NCBI GenBank assembly: GCA_020722725.1
Contig: DYKG01000004.1
Location: 25,283-89,282 of the forward strand
From: Candidatus Methylomirabilis sp.
Lineage (GTDB): Bacteria; Muiribacteriota; Ozemobacteria; Ozemobacterales; Ozemobacteraceae
Direction: 5' to 3'
Length of the DNA stretch: 64,000 nt
Shown here: one piece after another, positions 24,232 to 45,209 of the stretch
Layout: each line of letters opens with the position of its first letter
Numbering within the stretch: position 1 is the first letter of the stretch
Notes under the pieces: model-generated
The model's input: the letters and a program-made list of their open reading frames with translations, nothing else
Told to the model about the DNA's origin: nothing
The model's database searches: none
Position numbers and translations under genes: made by a program

Positions 24232-27200
24232 ATGCCAAACCAGGAACTAATGCAGGTTTTCAAAAAATATAAATCAGACAGCGAGATCTTTCATGATCTG
24301 ATGCGCTTCAAAGTGCGCGAGCTGTTGCTGGTTGCCACGATTTTTGATGCATACGCGCTCGAGCAGGATGGGATGCTTGCTGAAAAGATTTTCGGCGAAT
24401 ATTTCCATTTGAATCTTACCAGTGCACCCCGCATTACCAGCGTTACTTCGTGCGGTGAAGCACTTGAAATGTTGAGCAAAAGGCAGTTTCACATGGTGGT
24501 TGTTCTGAGCCGCCTTAGTAAGATTGATATGATCAGAATTGGCGAAAAGGTTAAAGATAAATACCCGGATTTGCCGGTTCTTCTGCTGCTCAACGATAAT
24601 ACTGACCTTGAAGGCTTTGATGCAAAAAACGATCTTTGCCGGTTTTACAACCAGGTTTTCGTCTGGAACGGTAATTCTGAAATCTTTCTGGCGATGATCA
24701 AATACGTCGAAGATCAGCAGAACGCTGATCGCGACACGCAGATTGCCCAGGTCAGAATCATTCTGCTGGTAGAAGATTCGATCAGATACTATTCCCGCTA
24801 TCTTCCTCACCTTTATTCTGAGCTGATTCGCCAGACTTCAAAGCTGGTTGAAGAGGAAATGCAGGAAGAAACCAAAAAGGTTCTAAAAATCCGCTGCCGG
24901 CCAAAAATCATTCTGGCAACCGATTATGAAGAAGCGATGCGGCTTTTCGAATATTATCGCGATTTTCTTTTGTGCGTTATTACTGATGTGAAATACAATA
25001 AAGACGGGGTGCTCGACGATGAAGCCGGAATCAAGCTGTCGCGACGACTGAAAGAGCTTCAGCCTGATATGCCGATCCTGCTGCAGTCATCAGAACCGGA
25101 TATAGAAGCGGTGGCAAACCGAATTGGCGCTTCTTTCATTCATAAGGATTCTCAGTTTCTATCCAAACGACTGTCAAAATTCTTTTATCGCAATCTCGGT
25201 TTCGGCGATTTCGTTTTTCGCAATGCACGTGGCGAAGAAATTACCAGAGCCAGAACCATGGCCGATTTTCGCAATTGTCTGCGCATTGTACCCTCTGAAT
25301 CGATTGAATACCACGCTTCGCGCAACCACTTTTCCACCTGGCTTCTTGCCCGCGGTGAAGTGCAGACGGCAAAAGTCGTTTCGCGAATTCATGTTACTGA
25401 ATTCGACCGGGTCGAGGCTCTGCGTGACTTCCTGATCAATATGGGCAACTGGGTTTTCAGAATGAAGACTCGCGGCAAAGTTATTTCTTTCGACAAATCA
25501 TTCATTGGTGAAACCCGGCATCATATCAGCAAATTGGCCGAGGGCTCCATTGGTGGCAAAGCCAGGGGCATCGCGTTCATGAACTACCTTCTCTACAATT
25601 CGACAATGCTCGAGACAGTTGAGGACATTATTATCAGAATCCCCGAAACATTTATTATCGGGGTTGATGAATTCAGCAGTTTCATCGCCATGAACGATCT
25701 GGCCGAATTCATAACCTTCGAGAGAAATTACGATATAATCAAACGCCGCTTTCTTGAAAGCCGGCTTTCTGAAAAGATTCTTAATCGTCTGCGTATTGTT
25801 TTGCAGAAAATAAATTATCCGCTGGCCGTGCGTTCGAGCGGGGTTCTTGAAGACTCTGTCGCTCATTCAATGTCGGGGCTTTATGAAACCTTTTTTCTGC
25901 CCAACAATCACCCCGACCTCGAAACCAGGCTCAAGCAGGTGGAAGATGCGATAAAGCTGGTTTATGCCTCGGTTTATTCAAAAGAGGCGCGCGAATACTT
26001 CGATGCAATTAATTACAACATCGAAGAAGAAAAAATGGCGGTGGTTATTCAGCAGATTGTCGGCAAGCAGCACGGAAACCTTTTTTATCCCATGATTTCA
26101 GGGGTGGGGCAGTCTTATAATTATTATCCCTTCTCATATATTAAGCCGGATGATGGGGTGGGAATGCTGGTGCTGGGTCTGGGGCGCCTTGTAGTCGGGG
26201 GCGAGCGCTCTTTCCGCTTTTGCCCCGCATATCCGAATCTTGAAATTCTTACCCCCGAAGAGCTGGTTAAAAGCTCGCAGAAAAGGTTCTATGCACTTGA
26301 TCTCGGGAAAAATACCATAGACCTGTTCAACGGTGAAGATGCCACTCTCATAAAAACCGATATCTCTGATGCGGAGCCATCTGTTCTACGCCACACAGCC
26401 TCCACCTGGAACCACATCGATCAGCGGCTGGAAGTTGGCATCGACGCTCGCGGACCGCGGGTTCTCAATTTTGCCAACGTTATACAGTATGAATCAATTC
26501 CGCTGGCAAAGGCCATGAAACATATTCTCGATGTTTCGAAAGAAGCACTTGAAACTCCCGTTGAGATTGAATTTGCGGTAGATGTCGACCAGACTGAAGA
26601 AGGTGAAAAACCGGCATTTTATCTTCTGCAGCTCAAGCACATGCTGCGCGAATCTGAAGAATGCAATATCGATGTCAGCAAAATCGAACACGATAAGCTG
26701 GTGCTCTTGGCCGACGGTGGAATGGGTAACGGGCGCATGGATGAAATATCAGACATTATCTGGATAGACCCGGATAATTTCGACAAATCAAAAACCGAAG
26801 AAATGGCTCTCGAAGTAGAAGCTTTCAACCTGAAGCTGAAAGCCGAGGGCAGAAAATATCTGCTGCTTGGCCCCGGGCGCTGGGGTACCCGCGATCGCTG
26901 GCTCGGAATTCCCATTACCTGGCCCCAGGCCTCCTATGCAAAGGTCATTGTTGAATACTCTCTTGAAGGCTTCAGAGTAGATGCATCAATGGGATCGCAT
27001 TTTTTCCACAATGTAACAACCATGAATATCGGTTATTTCTCGGTCCGCCAGGATTCGGGTGGAGGGTTTATCGACTGGCAATGGCTGCGCAACCAGCCGG
27101 TTCTTGAAAACAGGCAATTTTTCTCCCATTCCAGAATTGAACACCCCATGGGAGTGTTAATGGATGGTCGCAAAGCAGTTTTCGTGATTTTTAAAAATCT

Positions 27201-27261
27201 TGATGACTCGAAAACCATTGAAGCAACCGAGGTTGAGATTAATGATTACAGCCTGCTTTAA
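24232..27261 (+). CDS. Receiver-like domains fused to a PEP/pyruvate-binding (PPDK N-terminal) domain
   Basis: A 1009-residue cytoplasmic protein. Residues about 30-165 and 170-325 look like two CheY-like receiver folds, the first without an obvious phosphoacceptor Asp, the second with ITDVKYNKDG. From about residue 440 comes the ATP-grasp PEP/pyruvate-binding domain: SIGGKARGIAFMNYLL, VRSSGVLEDSVAHSMSGLYETF, LLLGPGRWGTRDRWLGIPITW and DASMGSHFFHNVTTMNIGY. The phosphohistidine swivel and PEP-enolate domains of PPDK or PEP synthase are absent. It therefore probably does not make PEP by itself; it may be a regulatory phosphotransferase. Monocistronic with its own promoter. Confidence 0.8.
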   Translation: MPNQELMQVFKKYKSDSEIFHDLMRFKVRELLLVATIFDAYALEQDGMLAEKIFGEYFHLNLTSAPRITSVTSCGEALEMLSKRQFHMVVVLSRLSKIDMIRIGEKVKDKYPDLPVLLLLNDNTDLEGFDAKNDLCRFYNQVFVWNGNSEIFLAMIKYVEDQQNADRDTQIAQVRIILLVEDSIRYYSRYLPHLYSELIRQTSKLVEEEMQEETKKVLKIRCRPKIILATDYEEAMRLFEYYRDFLLCVITDVKYNKDGVLDDEAGIKLSRRLKELQPDMPILLQSSEPDIEAVANRIGASFIHKDSQFLSKRLSKFFYRNLGFGDFVFRNARGEEITRARTMADFRNCLRIVPSESIEYHASRNHFSTWLLARGEVQTAKVVSRIHVTEFDRVEALRDFLINMGNWVFRMKTRGKVISFDKSFIGETRHHISKLAEGSIGGKARGIAFMNYLLYNSTMLETVEDIIIRIPETFIIGVDEFSSFIAMNDLAEFITFERNYDIIKRRFLESRLSEKILNRLRIVLQKINYPLAVRSSGVLEDSVAHSMSGLYETFFLPNNHPDLETRLKQVEDAIKLVYASVYSKEAREYFDAINYNIEEEKMAVVIQQIVGKQHGNLFYPMISGVGQSYNYYPFSYIKPDDGVGMLVLGLGRLVVGGERSFRFCPAYPNLEILTPEELVKSSQKRFYALDLGKNTIDLFNGEDATLIKTDISDAEPSVLRHTASTWNHIDQRLEVGIDARGPRVLNFANVIQYESIPLAKAMKHILDVSKEALETPVEIEFAVDVDQTEEGEKPAFYLLQLKHMLRESEECNIDVSKIEHDKLVLLADGGMGNGRMDEISDIIWIDPDNFDKSKTEEMALEVEAFNLKLKAEGRKYLLLGPGRWGTRDRWLGIPITWPQASYAKVIVEYSLEGFRVDASMGSHFFHNVTTMNIGYFSVRQDSGGGFIDWQWLRNQPVLENRQFFSHSRIEHPMGVLMDGRKAVFVIFKNLDDSKTIEATEVEINDYSLL

Positions 27262-30607: not shown

Positions 30608-30949
30608 ATGCAGAACGTGGGTTGGGAACAGAAAATTGAGAGTGGTGCTGGCGGAATCATGACTGCGATTGCCGAACTTGGCGGCGATCTTTCTGTTACC
30701 AATGTTTCCCAGATCAAAAAACACCTTGAACAGGTTCTTGATGCAGAATGTAACCTTGAGCTGAAGGTTAGCTCAGTTATCGCAGTCGATACAGCTTTTT
30801 TTCAATTATGGCATAGCTATTTGAATATCAGTCGGGCCAACAATTTAAGATGCACCCTGGTAGAAGATCCTGCCGGGCTGGTTACCAGAGCCGCGGGTAT
30901 TGTCGGTCTCGACCACCTTATTTCATCTACAGCGGGAAAAAATCAATGA
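30608..30949 (+). CDS. STAS-domain protein (chemosensory operon)
   Basis: A 113-residue single STAS domain of the anti-sigma-antagonist type. AVDTAFFQLWHSYLNISR is the loop that in SpoIIAA-like proteins holds the phosphorylatable residue, here a Thr after Asp. Such proteins often open chemosensory operons; their partners there are largely unstudied. The start at 30608 has GGGG seven bases upstream; Met at 30659 is an alternative. Its stop overlaps the cheY start. Confidence 0.75.
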   Translation: MQNVGWEQKIESGAGGIMTAIAELGGDLSVTNVSQIKKHLEQVLDAECNLELKVSSVIAVDTAFFQLWHSYLNISRANNLRCTLVEDPAGLVTRAAGIVGLDHLISSTAGKNQ

Positions 30950-31311
30950 CAAAAATTCTGATTGCCGATGATTCACCCAGCATTCGCATGATGCTTGGCT
31001 CAGTTTTAAATGAAAACGGGTATCAGGTTCAGGACGCCGAAAACGGCCGGGTGGCCCTCGAAAAAGCGTCAGATTTCGGGCCGGATTTGGTTATAACCGA
31101 TCTTAACATGCCTGAAATGAACGGCATTACCCTTGTTCAAAATTTAAGGCGGAACAGCAGATTTAAATTTACTCCGATCCTTGTTTTGACCACCGAAGGC
31201 CAGGAAGAAAAAAGACAGTCCGGCCGTGCCGCCGGAGCAACCGGCTGGCTGGTAAAGCCATTCAATCCAGAAAAATTGATCGCAGTAGTAAAAAAACTCA
31301 CTAATCGCTGA
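30946..31311 (+). CDS. cheY: CheY-type single-domain response regulator
   Basis: A 121-residue receiver domain. It has the acidic pocket IADDS near residue 8, the phosphoacceptor Asp in VITDLNMPEMNG (about residue 53), the Thr in LTTEG and the Lys in VKPF. It takes a phosphoryl group from a CheA HPt histidine and signals to an effector. No flagellar or pilus genes lie in the window, so the target is unknown. It overlaps the STAS gene by four bases and lies 18 bp before the CheA-like gene. Confidence 0.9.
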   Translation: MTKILIADDSPSIRMMLGSVLNENGYQVQDAENGRVALEKASDFGPDLVITDLNMPEMNGITLVQNLRRNSRFKFTPILVLTTEGQEEKRQSGRAAGATGWLVKPFNPEKLIAVVKKLTNR

Positions 31312-31329
31312 GACAGGTAACACCCATTT

Positions 31330-33312
31330 ATGGATAAACAGATCCAGGCTTTTTTTGAAGAAGCTTTCGAACTCCTGCATGAGCTTGAACAGCTTCTTCT
31401 TGACCTGGAAAACTTTCCCGACAACCCCGAAATTGCTGCCGGCATTCTAAGAATTCTTCATACTCTTAAAGGCACTTCGGCAATGTTTGCCTTCAACGAA
31501 ATTTCTGATTTTGTTCACAAAATTGAAGCAATTTTTATTCATTTTCGCGATGCCCGGAAAACTATTGATAAATCTTTGATTGATGTTTTTATTGCCGCAG
31601 CCGATACGATTAGAAGAACTCTTCATGAAGAACCTCATCGGCTTGCCGATCAGAATCAGGTTATTGTTGATAAAATCAATCAAACTTTTGAATCATCCCT
31701 GCAGCAAAAAGAACACCAGGCACCAGAAAAGCTCGTAAAAAAGTCAGGCACCAAAAAGAAAACCGAGAAAAAAAATAAGAAAATCTGGCTGATCGAATTT
31801 ACCCCGGTTCCCGAATTCTTCTCCTCGGGGAACACCCCTGATCGAGTTTTTGCTGAACTTGGCGATCTGGGTGCGTTGAAAGTTGAATGCGACGTCAGCC
31901 GGATTCCGGATTTTCATCAGCTTAACCCTGAAAAATGCTATCTTTCATGGCAATTGACACTGGTTACCGATGCACCCCTTAACGAAATCAAAGATGTTTT
32001 TATTTTCGTTGAAGACCTGGCAAAAATCGACATTAAAGAAAAAATAGCGGATTTTAAAGAAAGCTCTGACCAGCCACCCGATATTCAGCCCCAAACAAAA
32101 ACAGACAAGATAGATGAAAAAAACAGGGTTGAGCCCCAGCCTTCAGATGTGAAAGGCAAGCTAGACAAACTTTCTGGTGTTCTTCCTCAAGATACTAAAT
32201 CCAATGCCCAGGATTTTTCAATTTCTGAAGAAAACGCAGAGACGGGTTTTCTTCAGGCCAATACTGAAAAGATGATTGCTCTTCTTGGCGACCTGGTCAC
32301 CGTTCAGTCGAAACTCAATCAAAAGGCTTCTATACACGGTGATCCTGAAATGATTTCCATTGCCAATGAACTTGAAAATATTACCGATGAATTGCGCGAT
32401 TGCGCCATACATTTAAGCATGTTTCCGATCGGCACTGTTTTTAATGATTTGCGAAATGCCGTTCTGAATGCAGGCAAAGGAAGAGTCACTCTTGAACTTC
32501 AAGGGGCATCGACCGAAATTGACCGATCAGCATTCATGATTGTTAAAACTGACTATGTCGCCATGTTTGCTGCTTTGGCAGCCTTTTCCTCTGATCGTAA
32601 GAATACTTCCCAGAACAAAATTTCTTTCTTTGCCTGTCATCAGGTTGGTAAAGCCCTTCTTGAAATTAAATATCGCTCAGACCCTGATTCAATTGGTCTG
32701 CTTGATTCTTTGAATAATTCCAACCCTGAACCGGATGAACCGGCTTTTTCTTTATTTGAATCGATCAAAGCCCTCGAATCTAAACTGCTGGTTTTGCATG
32801 GTTCTCTGGCTTTTGAAAAGCAGAATGAAGAAAATTTTCTGATTCGGGTCGGCATACCTTTGAATCTGGCCATTATTGAAAGCCTGATGGTGCAGGTTGG
32901 CAAAGGATTTTTCCTGTTGCCCCTGGCCGATATCGAAGAATGTATCGAGCTTTCCGAAGAAGACCAGAACAAAAGCTATCGTAAAAATGTGGCAATAGTC
33001 AGAGGGCAGTTTGTTCCATATCTGCATATTCGTGAAAAATTTTCGGTCAGCGGCAATGCGCCGCCGGTTCAGCAGATTGTCATCATGAAACTTGAGCAGC
33101 AGCGAATCGGCCTGGTGGTTGATCAGGTTGTCGGTGAATACCAGACCGCCATAAAAAACTGGGGTAATTTCTGCAAAGATGTTAATGGCATAAGCGGTGC
33201 GGCAATTCTTGGTGATGGCGGTATCGCTCTGCTCATCGATTTCCGCGCCCTTATCGATGAAGAAAAAGAACTGCTTGAAAATGCTTTGAAGGAAATCAGC
33301 CATGGCATTTAA
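31330..33312 (+). CDS. CheA-like protein with degenerate ATPase domain
   Basis: A 660-residue protein with CheA architecture. The HPt domain (about 1-105) has the phosphoacceptor His44 in ILHTLKGTSAM. A Lys-rich linker and a small alpha/beta domain (about 145-235) follow, then a P3-like helical hairpin (about 308-375) and a C-terminal CheW-like domain (about 515-650, GKGFFLLPLADIEECIEL to SGAAILGDGG). Where a CheA kinase should have the N-box RNxxDHG, DDGxG and GRGVGMD motifs, none is present; the region is short and reads FAALAAFSSDRKN. It should not bind ATP, but can still accept and donate phosphate through His44 and bind the array. Confidence 0.85.
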   Translation: MDKQIQAFFEEAFELLHELEQLLLDLENFPDNPEIAAGILRILHTLKGTSAMFAFNEISDFVHKIEAIFIHFRDARKTIDKSLIDVFIAAADTIRRTLHEEPHRLADQNQVIVDKINQTFESSLQQKEHQAPEKLVKKSGTKKKTEKKNKKIWLIEFTPVPEFFSSGNTPDRVFAELGDLGALKVECDVSRIPDFHQLNPEKCYLSWQLTLVTDAPLNEIKDVFIFVEDLAKIDIKEKIADFKESSDQPPDIQPQTKTDKIDEKNRVEPQPSDVKGKLDKLSGVLPQDTKSNAQDFSISEENAETGFLQANTEKMIALLGDLVTVQSKLNQKASIHGDPEMISIANELENITDELRDCAIHLSMFPIGTVFNDLRNAVLNAGKGRVTLELQGASTEIDRSAFMIVKTDYVAMFAALAAFSSDRKNTSQNKISFFACHQVGKALLEIKYRSDPDSIGLLDSLNNSNPEPDEPAFSLFESIKALESKLLVLHGSLAFEKQNEENFLIRVGIPLNLAIIESLMVQVGKGFFLLPLADIEECIELSEEDQNKSYRKNVAIVRGQFVPYLHIREKFSVSGNAPPVQQIVIMKLEQQRIGLVVDQVVGEYQTAIKNWGNFCKDVNGISGAAILGDGGIALLIDFRALIDEEKELLENALKEISHGI

Positions 33313-33490: not shown

Positions 33491-36385
33491 ATGTTAGATA
33501 ATTTATCCTTGGCCAAGAAAATTTTTGGGGGGTTTATAATCGTAGCAGCTATAACACTTTTTGTGGGTTATATGGGCTACAGTGGAGGCGCAAGCCTTGG
33601 TGAGCATGTTAATGGGATCGCCGAAGTCCGGTTCCCCAGCGTGCAAAGCCTGCTGATCGTTGATCGGGAACTTGAAAAAATCAGCGCTGCGCAACGAACA
33701 ATGCTTAATCCGGAAATTTTTGATGAAGATTACAACCGGCAGCTTAAAATTGTTGAAAATGCCAGAAAAGCCTATAATGAAGCTTTGAAAATTTATGAGC
33801 CACTGCCAAAGTCCAAAGAAGAAGCAGACGAATACACAATTTTCAAAGCCGGGCTTGAAGGTTGGAAAATTGAAAACGACAAGGTTTTTCAATTTTTGGG
33901 CAAGAAAGAAGAAACTGGTATTCGTAACCCTAATGCTTTACGGGTTCTTATCGAAAGCTTCAGCAAGGATCACTATAAGCTTCAGGTTGGGTTGCTTGGA
34001 GAAATAGCCGACTCAAAATCAGGAACCGGTGGTGATGACCATACAGCCTGTAACTTTGGTAAATGGCTGGTAAATTTCAAAACCAGCAATGCCCAGGTAA
34101 ATCAGATTCTAAATGAAATGCGCGATCCTCACCGGGAATTTCACGCTTCGGTCAAGAGAATCAGAAGTTACCTGGATAATGCTGATAAGGACGGTGCCAT
34201 GAGAGTTTTCTCCACTCAAACCAAACCGGCTGCAGAAAAAGTTTTCTCTGCTTTCGCAAGTTTGATTGATGTTGCCGCGCAAATTCAAACATTTCATAAT
34301 CAAGCCACTGAAATTGCTTTTGGTTCTGGCATGCTAAAACAGAATGCCGCCATGGAATCTCTGGCAAAAATCGTTAAGATCAATACTGATTCGGCAATGC
34401 ACGAAGCAGGCGTTGCCAAAAATGATGTAACCAAGGTTAAAAATTTCACTCTTGGCGGTATGCTGCTGGGCTTTCTGCTGGCACTGTTTGCTGGTATTTA
34501 TCTAAGCAGAAATATTAACGGCATTCTTCAGGATTTCCTGGCGGAAATGAAATGGCTTGCGGAAGAAGTGGTTTCCGGAAAACTGGCATCACGTGGCCGT
34601 GCCGCCAAAATCAACTTTGAATTCAGACCTCTGGTTGAGGGAGTCAATCAAACGATTGATTCACTTGTTGGACTGCTTGATGCAATGCCTGCTCCAGCAA
34701 TGGTAATCGATGACAAATTCCAGGTTTGCTATATGAATAAAGTGGCAGCATCTACCGTAGGCCAGACGCAGGATTCAGTTGTTGGACAGCACTGCTATGA
34801 CCTTTTCAAAACCGAAGACTGCCGCACTGAGAAATGCGCCTGTCATCTGGCAATGAGAAATAACCGTGATATCAACAGCGAAACCAAAGCTAAACCCGCA
34901 GGCAAAAATCTTGACATAGCTTACTCAGGTGTGCCGATGAGAGACCAGAATGGTAAAATCATCGGTGCTTTCGAAGTGGTTACCGACCTTACCGCCATCA
35001 AGGCTGCAGGTAGAATTGCAAGAAAAGTGGCCCAATACCAGGAAAATGAAACGAAAAAGCTTACCGCCGGTCTCGGTGCGCTTGCCAAGGGTGATCTTAA
35101 CTTTAAGCTCATTGTTGACAAGGGTGATGATGATACCAAAGAAGCACGCGCCAGTTACGAAGAAATCGCTCATGCCGTGCATGAATGTTCAAATGCAATT
35201 CAGCGACTCTGTGATGATTCCGCTGCGCTTGTGCAATCAGCAATTAATGGTGAACTTGCTACCAGAGCTGATGCTACCAGACACCAGGGCGAATACCGTA
35301 CAATTATAGACGGCGTAAATAAAACCCTCGACGCAGTAATTGGCCCGTTGAAAGTCGCCGCAAATTACGTTGACCTGATCTCTCAGGGTGAAATTCCCGA
35401 AGAAATCACCGACAGTTACAACGGTGATTTCAACGAAATCAAGGAAAACCTCAACGCCTGTGTCAGAAATCTTTCCAGGGTTGCCATTGAAATCAAGACC
35501 GCATCCGATAATGTCGCCAACGGCAGCAATGAGCTCTCGGCCAGTGCCGAACAGTTGTCGAGCGGTGCCAATGAACAGGCCAGCGCGGCTGAAGAAGTTT
35601 CTTCTTCAATGGAAGAAATGAGTTCGAACATTCAGCAGAACGCCGATAACTCAGCACAGACCGAAAGAATAGCACAGAAAGCGGCTGAAGACGCAAGGCT
35701 TGGCGGAAAAGCGGTTACTGAAACCGTTTCGGCAATGAATGAAATTGCTTCGAAGATCGCAATCATCGAAGAAATTGCGCGCCAGACCAATCTGCTCGCT
35801 CTTAACGCCGCAATTGAAGCGGCCCGTGCCGGTGAACACGGCAAAGGCTTCGCGGTTGTTGCTTCCGAAGTTAGAAAACTTGCCGAAAGAAGCCAGCTCG
35901 CCGCCGGAGAAATCCGTGATCTCTCTGCTTCAAGCGTTAAGGTTGCCGCCCAGGCCGGTGAAATGCTGTCGAAAATCGTACCCGACATTCAGAAAACCGC
36001 CGAGCTCATTCAGGAAATCAGCGTCGCATCTAAAGAACAGAACTCGGGTGCCGAACAGATCAATAAGGCTATTCAGCAGCTCGATTCAATTATTCAGCAG
36101 AATGCCGGAGCCTCTGAAGAACTCGCCTCAACTGCCGAAGAGCTGAATTCTCAGGCTGAACAGATGCGTTCGGTAATCAGTTTCTTCAAATTGAAAGGTA
36201 TGGATCGTCAGAAGGTTGGCCGCAATCAGATGACTCACACCAAAACCAAACCCCAGCAGAAGTCTGCCCATGCCCCGGCGGAAAAGGCAGCAGAAAAAGG
36301 CAAGGTAGTAAAAAAAGGCGCGGGCGTCAGCATCAATCTTAACGACGATGTAGACGGCTACGACGCAGATTTCGAAAAATATTGA
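33491..36385 (+). CDS. Methyl-accepting chemoreceptor with CZB-like and Cys-rich PAS domains
   Basis: A 964-residue chemoreceptor. TM1 is at about residues 11-30 and TM2 at about 318-338. The sensory region contains a chemoreceptor zinc-binding-like motif ([10 protein letters not shown] near 183, and [13 protein letters not shown] near 215). After HAMP (about 339-390) comes a PAS domain (about 392-500) with the cluster [18 protein letters not shown], which may bind metal or heme or sense redox. The signalling hairpin tip is [20 protein letters not shown]. There is no NWETF-type pentapeptide at the C-terminus. GAGGAGGG precedes the ATG. It is probably the only receptor of this operon. Confidence 0.9.
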
Positions 36386-36443: not shown

Positions 36444-36965
36444 ATGTCTAACGAATCGGGTACTATCAACCAGTATCTGGCTTTTAAACTTGGTGAAGAG
36501 GTTTATGCGGTAGAAGTAGGGAAGGTTCGTGAAATTCTTGATTTCCCGCCGATTACCAAAGTGCCGCGAACCCCTGATTTCATGCGCGGAGTCATCAACC
36601 TTCGCGGCAGCGTTGTTCCTGTTGTTGACATGCGCCTGAAATTCGGCATGAGCCGAACCGAAAAATCGGTAAATACCTGCATTATCGTCGTTGAGGCGAT
36701 GGTAGAGAGCGAAATTACCACGATCGGGGCCCTGGCCGACTCGGTCCAGGAAGTATTTGAATTAAGCGATGCCAATATTGAACCTCCTCCCAAGATTGGC
36801 ACCCGCCTTAAAGTTGAATTTCTGAAAGGCATGGGAAAAATTGGTGAGAGCTTTCTCATGATTCTCGACATCGACAAGGTGTTCTCTTCAACCGAAATCC
36901 TGATGGTTAAGGATGCCGCAGCAACCGGTCAGCATCTGGTAGAGCCAGACAACTATACCGATTAA
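36444..36965 (+). CDS. cheW: Chemotaxis adaptor CheW
   Basis: A 173-residue CheW domain linking receptors to the kinase. It has YLAFKLGEEVYAVEVGKVRE, the binding-loop block RTPDFMRGVINLRGSVVPVVDMR, and GMGKIGESFLMILDIDKVF. The ATG has ACGGAGG eight bases upstream. It is followed 8 bp later by cheR. Confidence 0.95.
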   Translation: MSNESGTINQYLAFKLGEEVYAVEVGKVREILDFPPITKVPRTPDFMRGVINLRGSVVPVVDMRLKFGMSRTEKSVNTCIIVVEAMVESEITTIGALADSVQEVFELSDANIEPPPKIGTRLKVEFLKGMGKIGESFLMILDIDKVFSSTEILMVKDAAATGQHLVEPDNYTD

Positions 36966-36973
36966 CATGAGGT

Positions 36974-37843
36974 TTGCTCGAAGTGCTTGATGAACAGCTA
37001 AAAAACAACGATTCTATTCCCCGGTTGACCGACCAGGATTATCGGCGTCTTGCTGAATTCGTTACCAACAACTGGGGAATCAAACTGCCGCCGGCGAAAA
37101 AAGTGATGCTTGAAGGTCGCCTTCGCCGGCGGTTAACCGCTTTGAAGATGACGACTTACAAAGAATATTGTGATTATCTGTTCAATTCAGATAATCATCA
37201 GGCTGAAGCCCTTGAAATGATCGATTTTGTCTCTACCAACAAAACCGATTTTTTTCGTGAATCAGATCATTTCAGGTTCCTTCAGGAAACCGTCCTGCCG
37301 GCCCTGATTGAACGCCATGCCAACCTTAACCTGCAGCTCTGGAGTGCCGGTTGTTCCAGCGGCGAAGAACCTTATACTCTCGCCATGGTCATCAGAGATT
37401 TTCAACGGGAAAACCGGAGTTTTCCCGTTAGAATTCTCGCTTCAGATATTTCCGCCAGGGTTTTGCAGCAGGCAAAAATGGCGATCTATAAGGAAGATAA
37501 GATTGCCCCGATTCCTTTCGATCTGCGAAAAAAATATCTCTTAAGGTCCAAAGACCACAAGAATAAAGTTGTGCGATTTGTTCCCGAAATTCGCAATATG
37601 ATTGATTTTGCCCGGGTGAATCTCATGCAGCTTGAAAATTACAATATCGGCTCCCCATTCCATATTATTTTTTGCCGAAATGTAATTATTTATTTCGACC
37701 GGGAAAACCAGGAACGGCTTGTGCAAAACTTTTACGATCGACTCGAACCTGAAGGCTACTTGTTTATGGGGCATTCAGAAGCACTCCCGGGATTAAAAGT
37801 TCCATTTAAAACCGTGGCCCCCATGGTCTACCAGAAAGCTTGA
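36974..37843 (+). CDS. cheR: Chemotaxis methyltransferase CheR
   Basis: Transfers methyl from S-adenosylmethionine to receptor Glu residues. The helical N-terminal domain (to about 75) and the Rossmann-like domain are both present: [10 protein letters not shown], the SAM loop [26 protein letters not shown] and [11 protein letters not shown]. The start is uncertain: TTG 36974 lies too close to GAGG, and GTG 36983 lies 11 bp from it; both are upstream of the first domain. The receptor in this operon lacks a CheR-binding pentapeptide, so CheR must dock directly. Confidence 0.93.
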
Positions 37844-37845
37844 AA

Positions 37846-38910
37846 ATGACGGAAAAACGTTTAAAAACCTTAATCGTCGACGATTCTGCCGTAGTTCGTC
37901 AGGTTTTGACCGAAATTCTCGGTAGTGATCCTGATATTGAAGTCATTGGCGCAGTTGCCAACCCATTTCTTGCCGTCGACCGTATGGCCGAAAATGCGCC
38001 AGACGTTATCGTTCTCGATATAGAAATGCCGAGAATGGATGGACTTACTTTTCTGAAAAAAATCATGACGCAGCACCCGATTCCGGTGGTGATCTGCTCA
38101 AGTCTTGCCGGTCCGGGCGAAGAAACGACCTTCAGAGCCCTTGAACTTGGGGCCGTAGACATAATTACCAAGCCACAGGTCGGTACCCGCGAGTTTCTTG
38201 CCGAATCGAAAATTCGTGTGTGTGACGCAGTTAAAGCAGCTGCCAAAGCCAAAATAGGTAAAATTATTCCCCGCGAAAGGCTGGTTAAGCATACTGCCGA
38301 TGTAATTCTTCCTGCAAAAAAGGTGGCTCTGACTAAAACAACTGACCGGGTGGTGGTTATCGGTGCTTCAACCGGCGGAACCGAAGCCTTGAAAGAACTG
38401 ATTACCAATCTTCCGCTCGATTGCCCTGGAGTGGCAATAGTTCAACATATGCCAGAACATTTTACCGCTTCTTTCGCCAGAAGGCTCAACGATCTTTCAT
38501 GTGTTACTGTTAAAGAAGCGGAAAATGGCGATTCCATGCTGCGCGGTCAGGTTCTCATTGCCCCGGGCAATAAGCACATGCTTCTCAAGCTCAGCGGGGC
38601 AAGATACTTTGTTGAAATCCGCGATGGCCCTCTGGTTTCGCGGCACCGACCTTCTGTTGATGTGCTGTTTCGTTCTTCTGCCAGATATGCTGGCAAGAAT
38701 GCAGTCGGCGTGATTCTTACCGGTATGGGTGATGATGGTGCCCGTGGATTACTGGAGATGCGTGAAGCCGGCGCCAGAACCATTGCCCAGGATGAAAAAA
38801 CTTCGGTAGTCTTTGGCATGCCAAATGAAGCAATTAAACTTGACGCGGCTGAATTCGTGTTACCATTAAATCAGATAAATCAGAAAGTGATTCGATTATG
38901 CCAAGATTGA
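37846..38910 (+). CDS. cheB: Chemotaxis methylesterase/response regulator CheB
   Basis: A receiver domain (1-120; IVDDSAVVR, phosphoacceptor in [13 protein letters not shown]) is joined by a linker to the methylesterase domain. The catalytic triad is Ser in [11 protein letters not shown], His in VQHMPEHFT and Asp in GMGDDGARG. It removes methyl groups from receptors and deamidates Gln when phosphorylated. I chose the ATG at 37846 rather than the TTG at 37840 inside the cheR stop. It overlaps cheD by 13 bp. Confidence 0.95.
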
Positions 38911-39485
38911 ATTCAGAGCTGAGAATCAGGCACAGCGACTTTATCAATGTCGATATTGGCAGCTATTACGCGTGCAAAGATGGTTCAGTTCTTCGCACCC
39001 TTCTTGGGTCATGTGTTTCTACATGCCTATATGATCCACTTTCCGGAGTCGCAGGGATGAACCACATTCTGCTTTCGGAAGTCGCCGACATGAAGAGGTT
39101 TGACGCCAATGCCCGCTATGGCATTCATGCCATGGAAATTCTGATAAACGAAATGGTTAAACTGGGCGCCATCCGCAATCGCATAAAAGCCAAGGCTTTT
39201 GGCGGTTCGAACGTATTGAGGTCTCTTAACGATAACATGTCTCCAGGGGAAAAGAATATCAAATTCATAGTGGAATACCTTGAAATGGAAAGAATACCGC
39301 TGATGGCCAAAGATCTCGGTGGCGATAAAACCAGGGTGATTTTTTTTCATACTGATACCTTCGAAGTTTTTGTCAGAAAAACTTCAACCTCACAGACAAA
39401 ACAGGCCATTTCCAAAGAAACGACACGCAAAACCCAGGTGGTCGAAGAAAAAGACCAGGCCGGCGATATCGAGCTTTTCGAATGA
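38898..39485 (+). CDS. cheD: Chemoreceptor glutamine deamidase CheD
   Basis: A 195-residue protein with the family's catalytic residues: Cys in [13 protein letters not shown], His in AGMNHILL and a Thr in [11 protein letters not shown]. It deamidates receptor glutamines to glutamates that CheR can methylate. A Lys/Thr-rich C-terminal tail (about 165-195) goes beyond the usual 160 residues. It lies between cheB and the HPt gene. Confidence 0.93.
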
Positions 39486-39498
39486 AACAGGAGCTTTT

Positions 39499-40458
39499 AT
39501 GGATCGAGAAACGATGAGCATCTATCTGGAAGGAGCCAATGAGCTTCTTGCCGAAATGGAGGAAGCAATTCTTCGTCTTGGTGACAATCCTGATGAAATG
39601 AGCGAAATTAACCGGCTTTTTCGGGTTATGCATTCCCTTAAAGGCTCTTCTGCGATGGTAGAGCTAAATGATGTCTCAGAATTTGCCCACAAGCTTGAAG
39701 GTGAATGTGATTATTTTCGCCAGGGTAAAGCCAGAGTAAATTCTGAATTTCTTAAACTGGTTCTTAAATCTCACGATCAGATAAAAATTCTTATTTTTTC
39801 TCATTTTGGCGGGGTTAAAGCTGATCACAAGGTTTCTGAATATCTTATCAATGAAATTAAAAAGTTTCGAGGTGGTTCGGTCGCCAGTTCTTTCAGTTTT
39901 GAAAAAGAAGAGCTGCGACTTGTAAGACTTCTGGCGACTATTCAGGATTCAATCAAACATTTAAAAGAATTTTCCATGGATGAAGTTATAAAACTCAGTA
40001 AAGACCTTACATGTTTCCTTCTTTTGAGCCGAAGAATGCAGAAAGAAAGCCTGACAGAATTTATGGCTCCATTCGAAAGGTTTTTAAGAGATTGCAAAAA
40101 ACTTGCCATTGTTCCGCCTGCTGAATTTACCGGATGTCTGCGCGAAGTTCTGGCAGAGGCTTCCAGATTATTGAATGAAAGCGATGTTCAGATCAATGAA
40201 GCGGATTTTTCTCCGGAATCTCTTTTAAGATCGCTGCAGATACCCATGGAACTCAAAGACCGTCTTAACCGAATAAAGGTGAGTATCGATTTTCCCGATG
40301 CAAGATTGCCTGATGAAAAAGAGTATCTGGTCAGACTTGACCAGATTGCTGAAAATATGAAAATTTTTAACCCACAGACGATTGTTGATGCTTTAAGCCT
40401 TTTAGGCAGTGTCAACCAAAAGTCAGATCTTAATTTTCAGAAGGAAAATGGTGCCTGA
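39499..40458 (+). CDS. Stand-alone HPt protein with long helical tail (detached CheA P1)
   Basis: A 319-residue protein. Residues 1-105 are a CheA-type HPt domain with phosphoacceptor His45 in VMHSLKGSSAM and the matching glutamate/lysine helix EFAHKLEGECDYFR. The remaining ~190 residues are predicted helical and match no CheA domain that I know; there is no ATPase or CheW part. The kinase gene follows directly and overlaps by 11 bp, so the pair looks like a CheA cut after P1. AGGAG six bases before the ATG at 39499 fixes the start; an ORF start at 39370 lies inside cheD. Confidence 0.8.
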   Translation: MDRETMSIYLEGANELLAEMEEAILRLGDNPDEMSEINRLFRVMHSLKGSSAMVELNDVSEFAHKLEGECDYFRQGKARVNSEFLKLVLKSHDQIKILIFSHFGGVKADHKVSEYLINEIKKFRGGSVASSFSFEKEELRLVRLLATIQDSIKHLKEFSMDEVIKLSKDLTCFLLLSRRMQKESLTEFMAPFERFLRDCKKLAIVPPAEFTGCLREVLAEASRLLNESDVQINEADFSPESLLRSLQIPMELKDRLNRIKVSIDFPDARLPDEKEYLVRLDQIAENMKIFNPQTIVDALSLLGSVNQKSDLNFQKENGA

Positions 40459-42004
40459 GATGTCTTCTGCTATTGAGTTGCTTCTTAAAACCGAATTAAC
40501 CAGAGAAGAAATTGAAGATCTGCTTGAATTTCTGGTTAAAGACCAGGCACTTTTCGACGTTACACCTGCGGCAAATTTGCCGGTTAGCCCGATTAACCCT
40601 CTGGTAACTCCCAAAATTGGTAAAATTCTGCTTGAAAAAGGTGAGATAACCCAAGAGCAGCTTGAAAAGTCTCTTTCAAAGCAGAAAAGAATCGGAGAGC
40701 ACCTGGTTGATGAAGGACTTATCAGCAGAGAAAAGCTTGATGAAGCACTGAAAGATCAGAACCGCCAGCGGGTTAAAATTGAAGCCCTGAAAAAATCGGA
40801 TATCAGCGCTAACATTAAAGTTAATGCCGGAAAGCTTGATAAGTTGTTCGATCTTATTGGCGAACTGGTAACCGTCCAGGAAAGGCTTTCTCAGGCATCA
40901 AGCGTCATTCGCAAAACACGACCTGAAAATTTGGGGCGGGTAATTGGAGAACTTGATTTAGAAGCCATTTCAGAAGAAATCAGTATGCTGACCAATTCTT
41001 TGCGTGATAATGCCTTGAGTGTACGCATGCTGCCGATCGAATCCACTTTTTCCAAATTCAGACGGCTGATTCATGACCTTTCGGCCGAGTTGCACAAAAG
41101 CATTGAATTATCCATGTCTGGCACCGAAACTGAAATTGATAAAACCGTAATCGATAAACTCGATGAGCCACTGATGCATATCATCAGAAATTGCGCCGAC
41201 CACGGCATTGAAAGCCCGGAAGATCGAAGAAAAGCCGGTAAGCCGGTTAAGGGGAATATTCACCTTTCAGCGGAACATGATGCCGGAAATGTGGTTATAC
41301 ACATTCGAGACGATGGAGCCGGGCTGAATCGCAAACGTATTTTTGAAATTGCTCTGCAGCGCGGTATGATAACTGAAGATACCGTTCTAACTGATGGTCA
41401 GGTTTATAATCTTATCTTTGAACCAGGGTTTTCAACCGCAAAAAACGTTACCAGCATCTCAGGCAGAGGCGTGGGAATGGACGTTGTCAAGAAAACGATC
41501 GAGGGGCTTGGTGGACACGTTAACGTGCTTTCCACCGAAGGAAAAGGCACACAGATCGATATTACCCTGCCGCTGACCCTTGCCATTATTGACGGTCTGC
41601 TGGTTTCTATTGCGCATCAGAGCTTTGTTTTTCCACTGAATGTGGTTAACGAATGTGTTGAACTTCGCAGGAATACTATCGACCAGAGCACCGGCGGCAA
41701 CCTGGCAAATGTCAGGGGGGCTCTTATTCCTTACATAAGACTGCGAGACCTGTTTGAGTTTTCCGGGGAAGCCCCGGAAATCGAACAGATTGTTATCAGT
41801 AGTCTTAATGGAAGGGTTATTGGGTTTGTGGTAGATGAGGTAATCGGTGGTCACAAAACCGTAATCAAGCCTGTCGGCAAGATGTATAAAGCCGTTCCCG
41901 AATTTTCCGGGGCATCTATTCTTGGCGATGGCTCAATTGCGATTATTGTTGACCCGTTTCGAATCCTAAAAATCGCTGAGGCCGCCGAAGCACTGAAAAA
42001 CTGA
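40448..42004 (+). CDS. cheA: CheA histidine kinase lacking HPt, with MshEN-like N-terminal motifs
   Basis: About 517 residues. Instead of P1 and P2, the N-terminus (about 40-105) has two copies of a 24-residue motif: KIGKILLEKGEITQEQLEKS and RIGEHLVDEGLISREKLDEA, each ending L-x-x-Q. This resembles the c-di-GMP-binding MshEN motif. P3 dimerisation (about 110-200) follows. The intact ATPase has N-box HIIRNCADHGIE, DDGAG and GRGVGMDVV. The CheW-like P5 ends SGASILGDGSIAII. It should phosphorylate an HPt in trans, most likely the one encoded just upstream. The start is uncertain between ATG 40448, GTG 40451 and ATG 40460. Confidence 0.88.
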   Translation: MVPEMSSAIELLLKTELTREEIEDLLEFLVKDQALFDVTPAANLPVSPINPLVTPKIGKILLEKGEITQEQLEKSLSKQKRIGEHLVDEGLISREKLDEALKDQNRQRVKIEALKKSDISANIKVNAGKLDKLFDLIGELVTVQERLSQASSVIRKTRPENLGRVIGELDLEAISEEISMLTNSLRDNALSVRMLPIESTFSKFRRLIHDLSAELHKSIELSMSGTETEIDKTVIDKLDEPLMHIIRNCADHGIESPEDRRKAGKPVKGNIHLSAEHDAGNVVIHIRDDGAGLNRKRIFEIALQRGMITEDTVLTDGQVYNLIFEPGFSTAKNVTSISGRGVGMDVVKKTIEGLGGHVNVLSTEGKGTQIDITLPLTLAIIDGLLVSIAHQSFVFPLNVVNECVELRRNTIDQSTGGNLANVRGALIPYIRLRDLFEFSGEAPEIEQIVISSLNGRVIGFVVDEVIGGHKTVIKPVGKMYKAVPEFSGASILGDGSIAIIVDPFRILKIAEAAEALKN

Positions 42005-42005
42005 T

Positions 42006-42512
42006 TCAGGGCAATTTGATTACCTCGCTGAGCATTGCATGCTCTTCGGCGGCAACCGATCCGCCCATTATTTTCGCAATGTTTCCGCCAAAAAGCTTAC
42101 CCATAAGACCCATATTCATTCCAGATATGTAAACTTTTCCGTCGTTTCCTGTATATACGCCCCAAGAACACGGCATAAGAGTTGAAACCTCGGGATTGGT
42201 ATCGAGAACTTCTTTTGCGTATTGTGCTTTGCAAAGCTCTACAAGTCTGACAGTGCGGGAACTCGGGTGCCCACCCTTTTCCATGGATTCGTTCATATTT
42301 CTAACCATGGGTGAGTTCCAGCCATGGCTGCTTATGGCTGCCTGGAGTTTGCTTACCGTTTCTTCGACTGAAGCAAATTTGCTTTCATGAACAGTTAGCA
42401 TCATCGATGGAACGAAAGCATACATCAGGCCTGCCAATAATAAAACGCCTGTTGTCAACCCCGCGAAAAAGCTTATTAAACTGAAGCTCGACTGATTGTT
42501 TGAATTATCCAC
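42006..42512 (-). CDS. DUF302-family membrane-anchored protein
   Basis: A 168-residue protein with one N-terminal membrane helix (about 13-35). A DUF302-like domain follows: ESKFASVEETVSKLQAAISS, HGWNSPMVRNM, then LCKAQYAKEVL and MPCSWGVY. DUF302 proteins are small, often found near membrane or stress genes, with no settled function; the Cys residues (about 103 and 124) might bind a ligand. It converges on the cheA gene with a 1-bp gap and has its own promoter at 42545-42573. Confidence 0.75.
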   Translation of the reverse strand: MDNSNNQSSFSLISFFAGLTTGVLLLAGLMYAFVPSMMLTVHESKFASVEETVSKLQAAISSHGWNSPMVRNMNESMEKGGHPSSRTVRLVELCKAQYAKEVLDTNPEVSTLMPCSWGVYTGNDGKVYISGMNMGLMGKLFGGNIAKIMGGSVAAEEHAMLSEVIKLP

Positions 42513-43010: not shown

Positions 43011-45209
43011 ATGACCAAAATTCTTGATCCAAAAAAGAAACTCGATATCGAAGAAATTCTCAACAACCTCGAAGACTACCACCCCCGGCGCAAAGGCTGG
43101 ACCTGGAGAGAAAAAACCGATTATAAAGTCGAAAAGTTCCATTTCAAGGATATGACAAAACCCTTGAAAAATTCGGTTCCGTTGCCCGCATCCAAATATT
43201 TTAATTTTATTGATCCCCAGCCCACACCGGTTATTACCACTGAAATAGCCTCCGGCAGATTTGAAGACGATATCCGGCGCATGCGCATGGCCGCATGGCA
43301 TGGGGCTGACCACATAATGGTTATTCGCACCACCGGTCAGAGCCACATTGATGGCCTGCTTGAAGGCACTCCCGAAGGCGTTGGCGGAGTTCCCATAACC
43401 CGCAAGCAGATTCGCGCATCGCGCAAAGCCTGTGACATGATCGAAGATGAAGTAGGCCGGCCAATTAATTTCCATTCCTATGTTTCCGGTGTTGCTGGTC
43501 CCGAAGTTGCTGTTCTTTTCGCCGAGGAAGGCATCAACGGCGCCCACCAGGATCCGCAGTATAACGTGCTTTATCGCAATGTTAACATGTACAGATCATT
43601 TACCGATGCCGCTTCAGCCAAAAAGGTAATGGCCGATGCCCGCATCTTCCAGATTGATGGTGCCCACAATGCCAATGCTACCGCCAAGGAAGGCTGGTCT
43701 GTCATGCCCGAACTGCTGGTACAGCATGGTATCAACTGCGCATTCTCTGCCGCCTGCGGCATGCCCAAAGACCAGATCGGCCTTTCAACCGTTCCACCCT
43801 GTGCTCCGCCTGCCCCCAAACTCTGGTATGACCTTCCCTATGCGGTTGCCCTGCGCGATTTCTTCAAAGAATACAAGTTTCGGGCGCAGCAGAATACCCG
43901 CTACATTGAGGCCGACATCGAAGAAGCAACCCGCACCCATGTTATTGATACCCTGATTTCAGCCCTTACTCATGCTGACATTCAGAGCACCATCACACCA
44001 GATGAAGGCCGCAATGTGCCCTGGCATTACAATAACATTCGCGGTATTGAAACTGCCAAGCAGACCCTGGTCGCACTTGACGGGATAAAACAGTTGATTA
44101 AAATCGACCGTGACGGCCCGCTAGGTGAAATGGTACGTGACCTCAAGGAACGGGCGATCTGCTTTTTAGAAGAAATGCTTGAAAGCGGCGGCTATTTTTT
44201 TGCGGTAGAAAAGGGCTTTTTCGTTGATTCAGCCCGTTACCCGGAAAGAAATGGCGATGGCATTGCCCGCGACGGAAAAGGCGGAGTTGGAACCGGCTCG
44301 ATCGTCGAGCGCGAAGCCGATTATATGGCCCCGGTCTGCAGCGTGTTCGGCAAAAATAATCTGCCCGCTGGCCTTAAGAAACCCTGCGATCTCATCGATG
44401 GCTGCACTTTGTGCAAACCTGAAAAAATCTTTTATCTTGATGAAATTGACCCCAATGATAACTGCAATCTGCGCCTGAAAAAGACCGAAGAATTTCGCAA
44501 AGGCGATAAGATCAGACCAGAAGTGGAATGGGCCGGCGATGGAACCGTGCTGATTCAGCTTTTTCTGCCCGAAGAAATCGAAGTGGCAAGAGTTGCAGCC
44601 CTTGAAGTCGCCAAAAAAATGGGGTTGAATGAACCCGAGGTTATCAACGCCCAGGTCATGCACCCTTCTGAAGGCACTTTTCTTGAAGTTAAGGGCAAGG
44701 TCGATTTCAGTATCGATAGAAAATCCCTGAAGATTCCACCGAAAGAAGAAATGCTCAGCGAAGAAGAAATTCGCGCCGGAATCAAAAAAGTCGGTTTTAA
44801 AGTCGTTGCCGGTACCGTGGGAGAAGACGAGCATTCGGTCGGTCTGCGTGAAATTCTTGATATCAAGCATGGCGGCATCGAAAAATACGGGGTAAAATAC
44901 CACTACCTCGGAACCTCGGTTCCCATAGGAAAAATGGTCGATGCAGCCATCGAAACCGGAGCCCAGGCCATTCTTATCAGCACCATCATCAGCCACAACG
45001 ATGTGCATCGCAAAAATATGCGCAAACTTGACGAATTGTGCCGAGAAAAAGGCATCAGAGACAACCTGATTCTGATTTGCGGCGGCACCCAGGTTACCCG
45101 TGAAATTGCCAGAGAATGTGGCATGGATGACGGTTTTGGTCGTGGCACCAAAGGAATTCATGTGGTTAATTCAATGGTTAAAACCATGAAAGCCAAAGGA
45201 AAAATCTAA
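43011..45209 (+). CDS. oraE: D-ornithine 4,5-aminomutase large subunit OraE
   Basis: A 732-residue catalytic subunit. The N-terminal TIM-barrel part (1-~590; HGADHIMVIRTTGQSHIDGL) is followed by a C-terminal Rossmann B12-binding domain. The base-off cobalamin motif D-x-H-x-x-G appears as DEHSVG, and TSVPIGKMVDAAIETGAQ and ICGGTQV complete the cobalamin fold. It uses adenosylcobalamin and PLP to move the amino group from C5 to C4 of D-ornithine, an anaerobic amino-acid fermentation step. It is the full length of the family. A structured repeat and a terminator-like hairpin follow the stop. Confidence 0.95.
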   Translation: MTKILDPKKKLDIEEILNNLEDYHPRRKGWTWREKTDYKVEKFHFKDMTKPLKNSVPLPASKYFNFIDPQPTPVITTEIASGRFEDDIRRMRMAAWHGADHIMVIRTTGQSHIDGLLEGTPEGVGGVPITRKQIRASRKACDMIEDEVGRPINFHSYVSGVAGPEVAVLFAEEGINGAHQDPQYNVLYRNVNMYRSFTDAASAKKVMADARIFQIDGAHNANATAKEGWSVMPELLVQHGINCAFSAACGMPKDQIGLSTVPPCAPPAPKLWYDLPYAVALRDFFKEYKFRAQQNTRYIEADIEEATRTHVIDTLISALTHADIQSTITPDEGRNVPWHYNNIRGIETAKQTLVALDGIKQLIKIDRDGPLGEMVRDLKERAICFLEEMLESGGYFFAVEKGFFVDSARYPERNGDGIARDGKGGVGTGSIVEREADYMAPVCSVFGKNNLPAGLKKPCDLIDGCTLCKPEKIFYLDEIDPNDNCNLRLKKTEEFRKGDKIRPEVEWAGDGTVLIQLFLPEEIEVARVAALEVAKKMGLNEPEVINAQVMHPSEGTFLEVKGKVDFSIDRKSLKIPPKEEMLSEEEIRAGIKKVGFKVVAGTVGEDEHSVGLREILDIKHGGIEKYGVKYHYLGTSVPIGKMVDAAIETGAQAILISTIISHNDVHRKNMRKLDELCREKGIRDNLILICGGTQVTREIARECGMDDGFGRGTKGIHVVNSMVKTMKAKGKI

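Follow-up and report, generated by a model that had tools for sequence, protein, structure and literature searches.

What can a CheA homologue contribute to a chemotaxis operon once the ATP-binding motifs of its kinase domain are gone? The question is raised by X, a 660-residue protein encoded in the window (the whole 64,000-nucleotide stretch of DNA analyzed here, from a member of the Riflebacteria). A previous sequence-only reading described it as a CheA with His44 in an HPt domain, a P3-like hairpin, and a P5 domain, devoid of every ATP-binding motif and with a shortened ATPase region. It proposed that X could be a phosphate sink, a scaffold, or a second HPt in a composite kinase completed by a split kinase encoded about 8 kb downstream in the same operon. 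The frame of X occupies exactly the positions listed in Table 1; it starts with ATG and is free of stops and frameshifts.

Table 1. Location in the window of X, its domains, and the genes of the surrounding chemotaxis cluster
Feature	Position	Strand	Remarks
X, pseudokinase CheA, P1-P2-like-P3-P4*-P5, 660 aa	31330..33312	+	ORF, Pfam, alignment, model
X P1 (HPt), residues 4-100	31339..31629	+	Phospho-acceptor His44, with Lys47, Gly48, His63, Glu66
X P2-like domain, residues 151-242	31780..32055	+	β-α-β-β-α-β in model
X P3 dimerization hairpin, residues ~304-361, short form	32239..32412	+	Weak Pfam H-kinase_dim match; model
X P4*, degenerate GHKL domain, residues 362-509	32413..32856	+	Without N, G1, F, and G2 boxes and ATP lid
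X P5 (CheW-like), residues 510-645	32857..33264	+	Pfam CheW, E = 5.6e-21, residues 518-645
STAS-domain protein, head of cluster	30608..30949	+	STAS_2, 6.7e-5, below curated cutoff
CheY, single receiver domain, directly upstream of X	30946..31311	+	Likely phosphate acceptor
Chemoreceptor (4HB, CZB, PAS, HAMP, MCPsignal)	33491..36385	+	
CheW	36444..36965	+	Pfam, 4.4e-38
CheR	36974..37843	+	Pfam, 3.3e-60
CheB	37840..38910	+	Pfam, 1.1e-66
CheD	38898..39485	+	Pfam, 6.2e-27
Free HPt protein, 319 aa: P1 and C-terminal extension without Pfam match	39499..40458	+	Hpt, 3.1e-14
CheA core: half P2-like domain, MshEN-like tandem motif, P3, intact P4, P5; no P1	40448..42004	+	

Domain architecture of X and the state of its P4 domain

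The N-terminal P1 domain of X is recognized by the Pfam Hpt model (residues 6 to 95, E = 1.3e-13). In the structural model it is similar to the P1 domains of Salmonella CheA (1i5n; Z = 17.8) and of Rhodobacter sphaeroides CheA3 (3kyi; Z = 16.8), and the phospho-acceptor His44 and its active-site neighbors are invariant in an alignment of 47 homologues. The P3 hairpin consists of two helices (residues 301 to 336 and 339 to 363) in the model, in agreement with the alignment; its Pfam match (residues 314 to 357) scores 19.2 bits, below the cutoff of 23. The modeled P5 domain matches that of CheA structure 4jpb (Z = 18.6; root mean square deviation [rmsd] of 1.8 over 129 residues). Thus, the three domains named in the sequence-only reading are all present. 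That reading overlooked a further domain, predicted with pLDDT above 90 over most of its residues in the full-length model and common to 46 homologues. It has no match in Pfam and none among PDB profiles, and no P2 domain is listed in the fold-search tables; its putative assignment as a P2-like domain relies on its position between P1 and P3 and on the order of its strands and helices. Pfam searches show neither a receiver domain nor a recognized phosphatase domain in X.

The region between P3 and P5, here referred to as P4*, gives no HATPase_c match at E ≤ 1 in Pfam, whereas the downstream CheA core scores 2e-17. A profile made from 145 intact CheA P4 domains likewise fails to match X with the HMMER filters switched off and E ≤ 10. 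In the alignment of X with the core, the N-box Asn is replaced (by eye, the core reads HIIRNCADHGIE, as opposed to MFAALAAFSSD in X), the DxGxG motif of the G1 box is gone, and the lid and the GxGxG motif of the G2 box are deleted. Only ~148 residues separate the end of P3 from the start of P5 in X, compared with 183 in the core. Both the proposed absence of ATP-binding motifs and the shortening of the ATPase region are therefore borne out, and with its P4 boxes absent X is a CheA homologue but not an active CheA kinase.

Structure prediction, which had been suggested as a check on the GHKL fold, indicates that the fold is still there. In the full-length model, built with 47 sequences, P4* shows pLDDT values mostly of 75 to 90 and resembles CheA P4 structures with Z of ~14.6. 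Because intact homologues could bias such a model, P4* was refolded with an alignment of the four dead orthologues only. The resulting model has a pLDDT of 83.8 and a pTM of 0.79, and its best structural match is the CheA P4 domain 1i58 (Z = 15.1; rmsd of 3.0 over 144 residues). Loss of the whole domain, rather than just its motifs, was ruled out because the Bergerat fold is still predicted from the dead orthologues only. Since the ATP boxes are lost while the fold is kept, X is best described as a pseudokinase rather than a truncated CheA. Judging from the alignments and the models, it is a genuine, maintained CheA pseudokinase, whose P4* is predicted to keep the GHKL fold after loss of every ATP-binding box.

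The operon and its second CheA

X is the third gene in a same-strand cluster that runs from the STAS-domain protein and CheY through the chemoreceptor, CheW, CheR, CheB, and CheD to the free HPt protein and the CheA core. Intergenic gaps in this cluster do not exceed ~180 bp. From X to the receptor gene, the plus strand is devoid of terminator-like sites, and one follows the core at positions 42048 to 42065; promoter-like matches inside the operon are fewer than in shuffled sequence and were disregarded. The split kinase starts 6.2 kb past the end of X, or ~8 kb from its start. CheY is also found upstream of X in relatives. A CheR-like methyltransferase of ~200 residues is encoded directly after the X-position CheA in relatives (L034:13036-13656, L036:12899-13540, L037:14409-15032, and L031:8183-8788) and is missing from the window. 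The receptors in related operons (L034:16432-19998 and L198:411-4976) carry long tandem segments of ~95 residues that resemble repeated HAMP units. Outside the cluster, the window encodes an upstream 1009-residue protein (positions 24232 to 27261) with a pyruvate phosphate dikinase N-terminal domain (PPDK_N) and a weak receiver-like region. A gene for an ornithine 4,5-aminomutase-like protein (Lys-AminoMut_A, OAM dimer, and B12-binding domains) follows the operon closely, at positions 43011 to 45209.

The core retains the N, G1, F, and G2 boxes, as seen both in Pfam and in the alignment, and its P3 hairpin is 12 residues longer than that of X. Among X, the free HPt, and the core, X is the sole carrier of a complete P2-like domain. 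The same genome encodes two further complete CheAs, on contigs C52 and C82. The core also contains an MshEN-related tandem motif (positions 40613 to 40759; E = 7.2e-14), which scores 51.3 bits in NCBIfam against a cutoff of 38. The MshEN criterion calls for two 24-residue RLG..Q motifs with a 5-residue spacer; in the core the spacer is a single residue, which makes binding of c-di-GMP uncertain, and the first Arg is variable among relatives. This segment is lost from X, although relatives with an intact CheA in place of X have kept it. Wang et al. had already pointed out fusion of MshEN with CheA in 2016 (PMC5013675).

Phyletic distribution, selection, and repeated loss of the P4 boxes

All boxes are kept in 155 of 164 CheA-like ORFs from Riflebacteria and many other phyla. 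The box-lacking exceptions come down to seven distinct genes, all of them from Riflebacteria: five X proteins, one gene in genome G007, and one in G002. The orthologues of X share the P4 loss and form a five-genome clade (G000, which is the genome of the window, and G005, G017, G021, and G022) with support of 100/99 in a tree of P3 and P5 from which most of P4 was left out. Intact CheAs at the equivalent operon position fall outside this clade, so that the orthologues, which the sequence-only reading had singled out as a possible source of intact domains, turned out to share the loss throughout. X has full open frames in all five genomes at ~35 to 39% identity (39% over the whole length for the G022 orthologue). 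The N and G2 boxes are lost and G1 (DDGQG) is kept in G005 and G017, whereas G021, G022, and the window's X have lost every box. Within the clade, the window's X has diverged furthest and sits on the longest terminal branch.

The same five genomes share the partner proteins. Among the 39 genomes of the phylum, they alone have proteins related to the free HPt over its full length (E ≤ 4.5e-39). The P1-less core is likewise encoded in all five, at 57 to 71% identity, and in none of the 34 others, whose CheA matches represent full-length proteins or score lower. The core of G021 is split into two ORFs. The order CheY-X-MCP-CheW-CheR-CheB-CheD-HPt-core is repeated in G017 and appears in fragments, located at the ends of contigs, in G005, G021, and G022. 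The pairing goes back to a single origin in these five genomes, so that the co-occurrence amounts to about one event that was kept five times. In G002 and G014, the corresponding place in the operon is taken by an intact CheA with the same architecture, and neither genome has such an HPt and core. On contig C29 of G017 (L200:8947-11877), a 977-residue frame encodes an unsplit core-type CheA with HPt, an MshEN-like motif, and P3-P4-P5, adjoining its own CheR, CheW, CheB, CheD, and receptor. It is probably the ancestral form of the split HPt and core. Together with the half P2-like domain that the cores contain, it makes the HPt and the core look like halves of one former CheA.

Rates of change differ sharply among domains. 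In X, identity to orthologues is 55 to 60% for P5, the most conserved domain, 38 to 42% for P1, 38 to 47% for the P2-like domain, and 17 to 23% for P4*, the fastest. In the core, P4 (65 to 69% identity) ranks first in conservation, or close to first, whichever genomes are compared. Between G005 and G017, dN/dS is 0.19 for P4*, compared with 0.06 for the core P4, 0.14 for P1, and 0.11 for P5 of X, so P4* is relaxed but not free. By these figures, the constraint on catalysis has shifted from X to the core, but P4* is still held, as would be expected of a structural spacer.

P4 loss is also seen elsewhere in the phylum. The CheA at the X position in G007 (contig C22, L034:11038-13049) is split into a 332-residue frame, P1-P2-like-MshEN, and a 350-residue frame, P3-P4*-P5, the latter with the lid and G2 deleted. 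In the P3 and P5 tree it groups with the intact G014 protein (99/94), apart from X, and its P4 was probably lost independently. No P1-less core was found in G007, and P4 loss therefore does not strictly need a core partner. On contig C165 of G002, a 412-residue P3-P4*-P5 protein without P1 (L212:4536-5771) is encoded directly upstream of an intact CheA (602 residues, L212:5582-7387). A single P4 loss for the X clade, G007, and this G002 gene is rejected (approximately unbiased [AU] P = 0.005), and one for the X clade and G007 is borderline (AU P = 0.046). By these topology tests, P4 was lost at least two times, probably three, in Riflebacteria. A sister relationship of X and the core as duplicates is neither shown nor rejected (AU P = 0.19).

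Role of X and comparison with known split kinases

X and the core probably make up a composite kinase: the core would phosphorylate His44 of X in trans, and X would pass the phosphate to CheY. Classical CheA dimers phosphorylate across subunits, and P1-only and P4-only subunits can therefore complement each other. The core would be the sole ATPase of the system, acting either within a P3-linked heterodimer with X or between neighboring homodimers in the receptor array; its longer P3 hairpin may favor homodimers and hence the array version. Docked by P5 to CheW and the receptor, X would hand the phosphate to the CheY encoded just upstream, its presumed target. The free HPt would also be charged by this core and, as a second and mobile donor, perhaps carry phosphate to CheB or to some other regulator, and the dead P4 would be kept for structural reasons, spacing P3 from P5. 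X would have arisen from a full-length CheA whose P4 lost its function after catalysis had become available from another CheA, one divided into HPt and core. Of the roles offered by the sequence-only reading, the composite kinase is the best supported, favored by the five-genome co-occurrence and by the reciprocal constraint seen in the sequences, with P4 relaxed in X and conserved in the core; scaffolding is compatible with it, and nothing specific speaks for a sink. Two counterpoints deserve mention: the free HPt alone could be the substrate of the core, which would leave X a scaffold, and the complete CheAs encoded on contigs C52 and C82 might act on X.

That X is only a scaffold, with P3 and P5 filling CheA positions in the array to lower kinase density or to couple receptors and with P1 as a leftover, seems unlikely. 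The strong conservation of P5 fits this role, and the P1-less dead CheA encoded next to a live one in G002 shows that a dead CheA can persist without P1. However, His44 and its active-site neighbors are kept in all five orthologues, with P1 under the constraint given above, and the P2-like domain is kept as well; a pure scaffold needs neither. The maintenance of these two domains makes scaffolding as the whole role less likely, whereas the conservation of P5 makes it compatible with the composite kinase and probably part of what X does. That X is a pseudogene in decay, or the product of a local error in assembly, is very improbable: the divergence and long end branch of the window's X would fit, but five genomes have full open frames with conserved P1 and P5, dN/dS between G005 and G017 is well below 1 in every domain, and the same boxes are missing in separately assembled genomes. 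Open orthologues with the same loss rule out this explanation.

It is quite improbable that X functions as a phosphate sink, its HPt taking phosphate from CheY-P, or as a phosphatase that speeds CheY-P hydrolysis. No CheX or CheC match is found on the window's contig, and CheZ was not found in the genome; in addition, CheA3 of R. sphaeroides, the closest analogue, is bifunctional and in its free form speeds CheY6-P hydrolysis (PMC3591291). Yet other contigs of the genome (C82, C61, and C52) carry CheX and CheC matches, so that a sink is possible but not needed, and X lacks any receiver or recognized phosphatase domain. The sink and phosphodonor roles are not mutually exclusive.

A kinase fold maintained without full catalytic function is also known from the pseudo-histidine kinase DivL of Caulobacter, whose structure 4q20 is a low-ranked Foldseek match. 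Unlike X, DivL has a sensor-kinase architecture and is not a CheA array protein. A closer parallel is the CheA3:CheA4 pair of Rhodobacter (Cereibacter) sphaeroides, in which CheA3 (P1, dead P4, P5) receives its phosphate from CheA4 (P3-P4-P5) (PMC10782961, PMC6829392). In both systems, two cheA-type genes lie in one operon, one product has HPt and P5 around a degenerate P4, and its partner has P3-P4-P5 without P1. The route of origin suggested here for X also corresponds to that proposed by Berry et al. in 2023 for CheA3, whose P4 is degenerate but has kept its fold and would have lost its function after the core was duplicated (PMC10782961). CheA3 is much longer between the HPt and CheW domains (794 residues), where it carries two further degenerate Hpt domains, three in all, whereas X has a normal CheA length and a single Hpt. 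Further differences are the activity of CheA3 as a CheY6-P phosphatase and the separate free HPt gene, which the Riflebacteria set adds. The window's free HPt and P1-less core by themselves correspond to the split arrangement described in PMC10782961, to which X adds a third protein with its own P1. X may thus be likened to CheA3 in its working, as an analogue rather than as a member of the CheA3 group. Its origin appears to be independent, as judged from phylum and architecture, the trees having been built without CheA3 and CheA4 sequences.

In the survey of Berry et al., P1, P3, P4, and P5 were the core domains of all CheAs; the CheA3:CheA4 arrangement was called unique, was found in twenty other Rhodobacteraceae genomes, and was reported only from that family (PMC10782961). 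Split kinases with a phosphatase can yield ultrasensitivity, as argued by Amin et al. (PMC3591291), and De Beyer et al. reported that CheA3 and CheA4 couple to different receptors (PMC6829392). Within the literature collection searched, no paper dealt with a CheA pseudokinase and its P4, and nothing relevant concerned chemotaxis in Riflebacteria.

More tentatively, a single core might charge two phosphodonors, the array-anchored X, held through P5 and acting as an obligate heterodimer partner, and the diffusible HPt. Receptor output would then follow two branches, one bound to the array and leading to CheY, the other mobile; c-di-GMP could feed in through the MshEN-like motif, and pseudokinase CheAs would have arisen at least two, probably three, times in the phylum. 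This extended scheme is conceivable, if rather doubtful as a whole.

Surveys that demand a HATPase_c domain will miss proteins such as X. The half-degraded proteins of G005 and G017, with only G1 left, and their intact relatives form an evolutionary series on which ideas about the origin of an obligate composite kinase can be tested. As a probable independent case in another phylum, X suggests that CheA can repeatedly split into phosphodonor and catalytic subunits.
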